Part shown: positions 6,652 to 27,001 of the stretch, one piece after another
How the letters are laid out: the number at the start of each line of letters is the position of its first letter
How positions within the stretch are numbered: the stretch's first letter is position 1
Origin: Candidatus Nanopelagicaceae bacterium
GTDB lineage: Bacteria > Actinomycetota > Actinomycetes > Nanopelagicales > Nanopelagicaceae
DNA: 51,454 bases
Reading direction: 5' to 3'
NCBI GenBank assembly: GCA_947461995.1
Contig: CANHNH010000001.1
Span: forward strand, 78,913-130,366
The notes under the pieces: generated by a model
What the model saw: the letters and a program-made list of their open reading frames with translations, nothing else
The model's database searches: none
Told to the model about the DNA's origin: nothing
Position numbers and translations under genes: made by a program

Positions 6652-8810
6652 TTATTGGTTGTTCGATATACGTCGTACACGCCTTCAATTGATCTCACCG
6701 CTGTAAGAACAGCGTCGAGATGTGTGGCATCAGCCATTTCAAATGTAAATCGTGAAATCGCTACTCGGTCTTTAGAAGTGCTCACCGCAGCGCTGAGGAT
6801 ATTTACATGCTGTTCAGATAGCGTTCGAGTTACATCGGCTAGTAAGCGAGCCCTATCTAAAGCTTCAACTTGAATGTTCACCAAGAACAAGCTCGATGCA
6901 CCCTCTTGCCATTTGACGCCAACAATTCGATCGCTCTGATGGGTCCGTAAATCATCAGCGTTAACGCAATCGGATCGATGCACTGAAATACCGTTACCGC
7001 GGGTTATAAAACCCATGATGGAATCTCCCGGAACAGGAGTGCAGCAGCGAGCTAGCTTTACTAATACGTCATCGATACCTTCGACTTTGATCGCACCACT
7101 AGTTCGCTTTGCAACAGGTGCTCCCCCAGGAATGAAATCCATCGTTGGTTCCGGGTGCGAATCTTCAACTCCCATAAATTGAACTAACTTGTCAATGATT
7201 GCAGCAGATGAAACATGTCCATCACCGACTGCTGAATACAAAGCCGAAATGTCCGGGTATCGCAATTCATGAGCGAGTTCGAGCAACGCATGACCTGCAA
7301 AGATTTTCTGCAACGGTAATCCTGCTTTGCGCATCTGGCGGGCTATAGATTCACGACCAGCTTCCACAGCTTCTTCTCTACGTTCCTTGCTAAACCACGC
7401 CTTAATTTTTGAACGTGCACGTGGACTCTTAACAAAATTTAGCCAGTCTCTGGACGGAGCCGCTGTTTCGCTCTTATTAGTAACGACCTCAATTACATCT
7501 CCGTTATTTAAACGCGTATCCAAGGGAACTAATCGGCCGTTGATTTTGGCACCTGCACATCTATTACCAACATCTGTATGAACAGAATAAGCAAAGTCGA
7601 CCGGCGTGGATCCACCAGGTAAGGCAACAACGCTTCCTTTCGGAGTAAAGACAAAAACTTCAGGTGAACCTAAATCGAATCTGAGTGCCTCTAGAAATTC
7701 TGATGGATCCTCAGTTTCTTTTTGCCATTCATGAAGTTGTCGAAGCCACAGCATTTGAGGGGAAGAGGAGTTTGTGTCTGTTCCCTGTTTGTATTTCCAA
7801 TGAGCAGCAATACCGAATTCAGCTCGAGAATGCATCTCGAAGGTTCGTATCTGAATCTCAATTGCTTTGCCATCAGGTCCAATCACGGTCGTGTGAAGTG
7901 ATTGGTACAGATTAAATTTTGGCATCGCTATGTAATCTTTGAAACGCCCCGGAACTGGAGACCAACGAGCATGGATTGAACCAAGTACGGCGTAGCAATC
8001 CTTAACATCGTTGACTAAAACTCTTATTCCAACTAAATCATAAATATCGTTAAAGTCTCTTCCTCGAACAACCATCTTCTGATAAACACTAAAGAAATGC
8101 TTCTTACGCCCTGTAACGCTTGCCTCAATGGAATCCTTCGCAAGATCAGCTTCCACATTTTTTATTACTTCAGCAGTCAGTGCATCGCGTGAAGGGCTTC
8201 GCTCTGCAACTAATCTTGAAATCTCTTCAAATTTCTTAGGCTCAAGTACTGCAAATGAAAGATCTTCTAACTCCCACTTGATTGCGTTCATACCTAACCT
8301 ATGGGCTAGAGGTGCGTATATATCCAGTGTTTCGCGTGCTTTACGTTCTGCGCTTTGCGGATCAACATACTTCCAGGTTCGGGCATTATGTAATCGATCT
8401 GCCAATTTGATTACCAAAACTCTGATATCACGTGACATCGCAACAACCATTTTGCGAACGGTTTCCGCTTCGGCCGTTGGACCGTAACTCAATTTATCCA
8501 GCTTAGTTACACCATCGACAAGCGATGAAATTTCATCGCCAAAATCACTCTTTAATTGAGCTAATGAATATGGAGTGTCTTCTACTGTGTCATGCAAAAG
8601 CGCAGCAATAATTGTTGCATCATTTAATCCCAATTCTGAGAGAATATGCGCCACTGCAACAGGGTGGGTGATGTATTCATCGCCTGATTTGCGTAGTTGG
8701 CCTAGATGGGCGCTCTTTGCAACTTCATAAGCCTTCTCAACCTTTGCTACATCTGATTTTGGATCATGCTCCTGTAAGGAACTGATCAGAGGTTGAAGAA
8801 GTGTGTCCAT
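6648..8810 (-). CDS. relA: Bifunctional (p)ppGpp synthetase/hydrolase RelA/SpoT
   Basis: HDTVED hydrolase motif, YQSLHTTV synthetase motif, TGS and ACT domains. Track start 8882 overlaps secF; internal ATG at 8810 (MDTLLQPLISS) removes the overlap. Confidence 0.95.
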   Translation of the reverse strand: MDTLLQPLISSLQEHDPKSDVAKVEKAYEVAKSAHLGQLRKSGDEYITHPVAVAHILSELGLNDATIIAALLHDTVEDTPYSLAQLKSDFGDEISSLVDGVTKLDKLSYGPTAEAETVRKMVVAMSRDIRVLVIKLADRLHNARTWKYVDPQSAERKARETLDIYAPLAHRLGMNAIKWELEDLSFAVLEPKKFEEISRLVAERSPSRDALTAEVIKNVEADLAKDSIEASVTGRKKHFFSVYQKMVVRGRDFNDIYDLVGIRVLVNDVKDCYAVLGSIHARWSPVPGRFKDYIAMPKFNLYQSLHTTVIGPDGKAIEIQIRTFEMHSRAEFGIAAHWKYKQGTDTNSSSPQMLWLRQLHEWQKETEDPSEFLEALRFDLGSPEVFVFTPKGSVVALPGGSTPVDFAYSVHTDVGNRCAGAKINGRLVPLDTRLNNGDVIEVVTNKSETAAPSRDWLNFVKSPRARSKIKAWFSKERREEAVEAGRESIARQMRKAGLPLQKIFAGHALLELAHELRYPDISALYSAVGDGHVSSAAIIDKLVQFMGVEDSHPEPTMDFIPGGAPVAKRTSGAIKVEGIDDVLVKLARCCTPVPGDSIMGFITRGNGISVHRSDCVNADDLRTHQSDRIVGVKWQEGASSLFLVNIQVEALDRARLLADVTRTLSEQHVNILSAAVSTSKDRVAISRFTFEMADATHLDAVLTAVRSIEGVYDVYRTTNN

Positions 8811-25745: not shown

Positions 25746-25817
25746 GGACGATTGGCTCAGCGGTAGAGCACCACATTGACATTGTGGGGGTCACTGGTTC
25801 GATCCCAGTATCGTCCA
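25746..25817 (+). tRNA. tRNA-Val (GAC)
   Basis: GGACGAT acceptor pairs ATCGTCC; anticodon arm CCACA-TTGACAT-TGTGG; GGTTCGATCCC. Confidence 0.97.
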
Positions 25818-25863
25818 CGTTATAGATTGAATTTAGAGATGAATTAGAGTGAAGAACACGAAG

Positions 25864-26535
25864 TCATAGTGACAACTTTTTGAAAACTGCTAAATACGCC
25901 GGATGAATTGGCCAAACCTTTGTAAGCATTGCTGGAAAATGCGGAAGATAAGAATCTCGTAATGTTTCAAATCCCTCGGCCTCAAAGAGTTTGCGAACGG
26001 TCTTTCCTGAAGGTCTATAAATGTGAGTTGGATCCGAGTCATAGAGTTTGGAGTACTCCCAGCGAGTTAACCAATTCGAAATTGTTGGCATGTGAACAAG
26101 CACAATGGCTCCAGGTCTTGCTGATGCACTAATTGACTGGATACCTGCAACTGGATTTGATAAATGCTCAATGATGTTAATCGCCAAAATTAGATCAAAC
26201 TTCTGTGAAAAAGGGCTTGAGTCGTGCAGATCTCCTTGTTTAAAAAATCTTTCGGGCTTTCTTCCCCCTGCAACTTCAACTGCATGATGAGCAATATCCA
26301 CTCCACATAAAGTTCGCGCACCTTCAAATGCATCCAAGAGCCATCCATAGCCACATCCGACATCGATTACATCAGATTGTGAAAGTTTGTTGGTGCTGTA
26401 CTTGGCGTAAATGTTAAACAGAATTCTGTCACGCCACTTATCAAACACTGTCTGTTGGGGTTCGCCCTGACTTGAGACTGCACCATAGAGTTGGGAAAAA
26501 TACTCATGACCCGCGGTTTCACGACTTTCTTCCAT
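25864..26535 (-). CDS. Class I SAM-dependent methyltransferase
   Basis: VIDVGCGYGWLLDAFE, FDLILAINIIEHLSNP. Start chosen at ATG 26535 preceded by GGGGAG rather than upstream TTG at 26556. Confidence 0.85.
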   Translation of the reverse strand: MEESRETAGHEYFSQLYGAVSSQGEPQQTVFDKWRDRILFNIYAKYSTNKLSQSDVIDVGCGYGWLLDAFEGARTLCGVDIAHHAVEVAGGRKPERFFKQGDLHDSSPFSQKFDLILAINIIEHLSNPVAGIQSISASARPGAIVLVHMPTISNWLTRWEYSKLYDSDPTHIYRPSGKTVRKLFEAEGFETLRDSYLPHFPAMLTKVWPIHPAYLAVFKKLSL

Positions 26536-26561
26536 CAGTACTCCCCGAGCTTTCAACTAAA

Positions 26562-26668
26562 TTTGGAGAAAACTATCAGGTTCATTGGAATTTACCGATA
26601 GACGCACTGGCGGAGATCGCCACAGTGACAGTGGCGACACTGGTTCGAGTCCGGTGCCGCTCTCCAAA
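26562..26668 (+). ncRNA. tRNA-like structured element (possible degenerate tRNA or novel small RNA)
   Basis: TTTGGAGA/TCTCCAAA 8-bp closing stem, GCGG/CCGC 4 bp, hairpin TCGCCAC-AGTGACA-GTGGCGA, and T-arm-like hairpin CACTGG-TTCGAGT-CCGGTG matching GGTTCGANTCC; no complete cloverleaf. Confidence 0.45.
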
Positions 26669-26677
26669 GTTTTAAAC

Positions 26678-27001
26678 TTAGTGGCTTACTCCCCCAAGAT
26701 TCATAATTACAACTCCGGCAATAATTATCGTCATGCCGATGATGTTTAACTTGGTTAATTCTTGATTGAAAAAAATCATCCCGCCAATTGCTGCACCGAT
26801 AATTCCAAACCCAGACCAAATGGCGTAGGTAATTCCAACATCTATTTTCTTGAGTGATTGGGACAGCAAAGCAAAGGCTGTTAAGTATCCGAAAACAACG
26901 CCAATTGATGGCCACAGTTTTGTGAATCCATCGCTTCGTTTAAGCAACAAAGTTCCGGCAATTTCGGCTGCAATGGCAATAGCTAGCAAGAACCATGTCA
27001 T
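26678..27001 (-). CDS. Small multidrug resistance (SMR/EmrE-like) transporter
   Basis: 107 aa, four TMs, conserved AAEIAGT Glu and YAIWSGFGIIG. Confidence 0.92.
   Translation of the reverse strand: MTWFLLAIAIAAEIAGTLLLKRSDGFTKLWPSIGVVFGYLTAFALLSQSLKKIDVGITYAIWSGFGIIGAAIGGMIFFNQELTKLNIIGMTIIIAGVVIMNLGGVSH

Follow-up and report, generated by a model that had tools for sequence, protein, structure and literature searches.

In the 51,454-nt stretch of a Candidatus Nanopelagicaceae genome analysed here (the window), a short, strongly folding segment between two genes resembles a tRNA in some of its parts, and the question is whether such a segment is a new RNA, a degenerate tRNA gene or the trace of inserted DNA. 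A sequence-only reading had offered a decayed tRNA-Val copy, an integration scar and a tRNA-derived small RNA as possibilities. When the sequence was checked, every string named in that reading, including the repeats and hairpins, lay where it had been placed. The intergenic gap of 142 bp that it gave is correct if the neighbouring methyltransferase gene starts at ATG 26535, and shrinks to 121 bp if the start is TTG 26556. The relevant features are as follows.

25746–25818, + strand: intact tRNA-Val(GAC), anchor of the insertion hotspot (ARAGORN; Rfam, 67.9 bits)
25864–26556, - strand: accessory SAM methyltransferase (Methyltransf_23, Pfam), inserted cargo; start TTG 26556 or ATG 26535
26550–26609, no strand assigned: methyltransferase flank, 5' of the gene; holds the TTTGGAGA arm; common to G027 and partly to G001
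26596–26666, + strand: probable decayed tRNA-Val copy (the element), best supported at 26610–26656 (D-loop to T-arm) and weak at its 5' end
26617–26637, + strand: 7-bp hairpin TCGCCAC-AGTGACA-GTGGCGA, the anticodon arm equivalent by sequence and alignment
26638–26656, + strand: T-arm CACTGG-TTCGAGT-CCGGTG; CACTGGTTCGA also stands, without a change, in the tRNA-Val T-arm at 25792–25802
26678–27001, - strand: small multidrug resistance (SMR) gene (Pfam)

Similarity to tRNA-Val(GAC)

The local alignment score between the element and the tRNA-Val(GAC) about 0.9 kb upstream was 48, against a mean of 15.3 and a maximum of 28 for 2000 dinucleotide shuffles, none of which reached 48. In the rest of the 51-kb window, with the tRNAs and the element removed, no tRNA-Val score was above 26. 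The resemblance to tRNA-Val(GAC) that had been noticed earlier is thus real and far beyond chance, and it is specific as well as significant, as expected of a tRNA pseudogene or remnant: when 49 distinct tRNAs, some of them from other families, were compared, the Val isoacceptors took the first and second ranks. These scores support a decayed tRNA-Val copy.

The best-aligned stretch is 26596–26666, with tRNA-Val as the top partner. In the anticodon arm, CCACAGTGACA of the element matches CCACATTGACA of tRNA-Val(GAC) in the local alignment, and with the T-arm left out the stretch 26602–26637 still scores 27 (3 of 2000 shuffles). Since both the segment 26570–26609 and the 3' end of the element (26649–26668, compared with the last 17 nt of tRNA-Val) match no better than chance, the homology is secure, as judged from the alignments, at about 26610–26656. 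A class II origin from tRNA-Leu or tRNA-Ser, to which AGACGCACTGG and the long hairpin had drawn attention, was rejected with scores within the shuffle range.

The divergent 3' end is also what might be expected if the element were the scar of a different incoming tRNA, that is, another tRNA-Val lineage or isoacceptor carried on the inserted DNA, and not a copy of the host tRNA-Val. The T-arm string CACTGGTTCGAGTCC of the element does occur in the tRNA-Val(CAC) of actinobacteria from other families, and the preserved T-stem pairing CACTGG/CCGGTG could reflect descent from such a lineage and not decay of the host tRNA. However, tRNA-Val(GAC) is the best partner overall (48–49 against 41), and the anticodon-arm part is closer to the GAC tRNA than to the CAC tRNA, so that we consider an incoming tRNA unlikely. 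Searches that treated the 3' terminus of the element as the exact end of a foreign tRNA gave no viral matches; a longer pattern gave no genome matches, and a shorter one gave three matches in unrelated bacterial MAGs, where no tRNA was called. A search of phage DNA with the element returned only short chance matches.

Folding and the outer stem

A working tRNA gene was sought in the element by two programs. ARAGORN called three tRNAs upstream (Gly, Cys and Val) and none in the element, and an Rfam cmscan with all models, including the tRNA model RF00005, returned nothing there up to E = 10, even when 156 bp were searched alone; the latter agrees with the earlier statement that no valid tRNA is present. 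That no D-arm or U33 loop can be drawn was likewise borne out: there is no D-stem, and position 33 in the loop AGTGACA of the 7-bp hairpin is G, and therefore the hairpin is not a working anticodon loop. The 5' acceptor strand of the element is not complementary to GCCGCTC. In summary, neither the RF00005 score nor the cloverleaf of a functional tRNA gene was found in the element.

As RNA, the whole folded segment reaches -39.6 kcal/mol (z -3.45; 0 of 200 shuffles as good), and the reverse strand also folds better than its shuffles (z -3.05), which the many inverted repeats of the segment would lead one to expect. Perfect inverted repeats of at least 8 bp were found in 78 of 1000 shuffles of this segment (about 8%), and 64 of 790 tiles of the 51-kb window have one too; the length of the 8-bp TTTGGAGA/TCTCCAAA outer stem is unremarkable.

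The comparison with relatives bears directly on this stem, which had been drawn as part of a two-helix, acceptor-like structure. The flank of the same methyltransferase in G027 matches the window at 26550–26609 with 82% identity over 60 bp. Where the element begins to differ from this flank in the window, G027 has CACTGATTCGATCCCAGAATCGAGCAC, a shortened 3' half of tRNA-Val and thus a shorter scar, and after it a nitronate monooxygenase gene and the FMN-binding gene. Because the match with G027 stops at 26609 and gives way to CACTGATTCGATCCCAGAATCGAGCAC, the TTTGGAGA arm is, on this alignment, part of the methyltransferase flank. G001 and G027 both retain the arm but lack its partner TCTCCAAA, and among the 121 genus genomes searched the 3' part of the element occurs in the source genome alone; for these two reasons the acceptor-like stem as drawn is probably fortuitous. 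The compensatory changes that had been suggested as a check on the outer stem have no counterpart in G001 and G027, which lack the TCTCCAAA arm, and covarying stems were not found in the relatives, where the element has no other homologue.

A small RNA with a function, tRNA-like or tRNA-derived, maintained by selection and folded by the outer stem and the inner hairpins, would account for the fold z-score of -3.45 and for the retention of the T-arm pairing despite base changes. Such an RNA would hardly be expected to have an outer stem that lacks its 3' arm in both G001 and G027, a 3' part that, among the 121 genus genomes, only the source genome has, no Rfam match and a reverse strand that folds nearly as well. 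Furthermore, no terminator was found in the element region, and the single promoter-like match there is fewer than in the shuffles. We regard this reading, the third of the earlier proposals, as very improbable, and slightly less probable again is the idea that the displaced tRNA-Val copy has been retained between the SMR and methyltransferase genes as a leader or as a small RNA of tRNA shape. A protein-coding reading was also rejected; an open frame crosses the element, and nothing supports coding.

tRNA-Val(GAC) as an insertion site

In close relatives the backbone of this region consists of tRNA-Gly, tRNA-Cys, cupin, tRNA-Val, the FMN-binding gene, SMR, DUF4287, hydrolase and trpD (genes without a Pfam call were named by reading their sequences). 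When the window is compared with six close relatives, homology ends at the 3' end of tRNA-Val and is back exactly at the SMR stop codon; between these points the window carries the methyltransferase and then the element, and no FMN-binding gene. The break-points and the scar of G027 place the element at the far edge of DNA that was inserted at a tRNA 3' end. The methyltransferase is present in 6 of 121 genus genomes. The sequence of tRNA-Val(GAC) is identical in most genus genomes, and the cargo straight after this tRNA varies: G013 has a TPR-type protein there, G151 a nitroreductase-like gene, G078 a membrane protein, and G001 the methyltransferase together with a kinase-like gene. In G001 (locus L043, reverse complement of about 8430–8475), the tRNA-Val end ATCGTCCACGTA is repeated about 30 bp on, which makes another short scar.

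A genus-wide search with tRNA-Val found extra partial copies, mostly running from nt 28–50 to nt 70–75. In about ten genomes (G020, G145, G065, G118, G104, G122, G103, G142, G157 and G087) a second copy, partial, decayed or full, lies 0.3–6 kb downstream of the intact one on the same strand; that of G122 is full-length with 87% identity. In G065, tRNA-Val is followed by a Phage_integrase gene (PF00589), then by cargo, and last by a direct repeat of 26 bp from the tRNA 3' end. Related integrases adjoin tRNA-Val in G070 and G131, so that a tyrosine-integrase gene stands beside tRNA-Val in three genomes, and the full layout with the 26-bp repeat is found in one.

Several of these loci deserve mention in their own right. 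In G104 (L147, contig C16) two full-length tRNA-Val(GAC) copies, both perfect and about 1.9 kb apart, stand on either side of an ABC transporter gene, which indicates that some elements carry or duplicate the whole tRNA. In G145 (L144), tRNA-Val and its 32-bp repeat enclose a 4.4-kb island that encodes a substrate-binding, ATPase and permease set and a TetR-like regulator. Repeated zinc-ribbon-like motifs are seen in cargo proteins of G065 (L145; DUF4379) and of G118 (L146; a protein of similar appearance). The sequence CCAAGTAGGAATTTCTACTAGTTGTGGAACATGATCTATAT is common to G149 (L153) and G025 (L155), about 40 bp 5' of the tRNA-Val scar and leading straight into it, with a similar one in G145 (L144); it may be the attachment arm of a single element family. 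AATTTCTAC...GTGGA resembles a Cas12a-type repeat, possibly by chance.

Chance resemblance of a palindrome-rich spacer with a T-arm-like string, to which generic T-arm strings and the commonness of 8-bp inverted repeats in the window might lend some weight, is the least credible of the explanations, given a score higher than that of any shuffle or any non-tRNA part of the window and a position where relatives carry tRNA-Val scars.

Most likely, then, the element is a decayed tRNA-Val(GAC) copy at the distal end of a one-methyltransferase island inserted at the 3' end of tRNA-Val. This explanation is founded on the resemblance of the element to tRNA-Val, on the break-points of the insertion and on relatives in which the same hotspot shows direct repeats. 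The break-points at the tRNA-Val 3' end and the SMR stop codon, together with the scars in relatives, also speak for the integration scar proposed earlier, and the decayed copy and the scar are probably the same thing. Recombination at the 3' end of tRNA-Val by a tyrosine integrase, such as some of these elements carry, would have given a working tRNA at one border and a tRNA fragment at the opposite one; the integrase would then have been lost, and the displaced copy would have decayed without function. Besides the preserved T-stem pairing, two observations stand against the decayed copy. Its last 17 nt are unlike tRNA-Val, although fresh scars in relatives conserve the 3' end best, and the repeat in the window does not include the tRNA 3' terminus, as repeats in relatives do; a divergent incoming tRNA end or a later rearrangement is a possible cause. 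In addition, no integrase of the G065 type was found in the source genome, the assembly of which (0.9 Mb) is 61% complete. Since scars recur at tRNA-Val across the genus, the element is most likely an ordinary trace of mobile DNA and not a new RNA.

Relation to known tRNA-bordered insertions

These results make tRNA-Val(GAC) a recurrent insertion site for cargo of one to a few genes in a genus of tiny-genome actinobacteria, where old insertions leave tRNA-like debris that is easily mistaken for new RNAs. The flexible genomic islands of Candidatus Actinomarinales are known to contain small cassettes that are inserted at tRNAs and end in a direct repeat of the tRNA (PMC7771536). The present case differs in its tRNA, Val(GAC), in the strong decay of the repeat and in the lineage, which appears to be a freshwater acI-type genus. 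Recurring repeats of the tRNA-Lys 3' end occur in an additive island of Candidatus Methylopumilus (PMC10872708), which belongs to another phylum and uses another tRNA, whereas the window has one decayed copy only. Tycheposons, in the description given in PMC10872708, are tRNA-bordered cargo elements with a tyrosine recombinase; going by that description, G065 and G104 show parts of the layout, and the island in the window has a single cargo gene and no recombinase; we do not claim membership. Decayed tRNA copies or integration scars at tRNA hotspots are a known phenomenon in streamlined aquatic bacteria, and the element is an old example.
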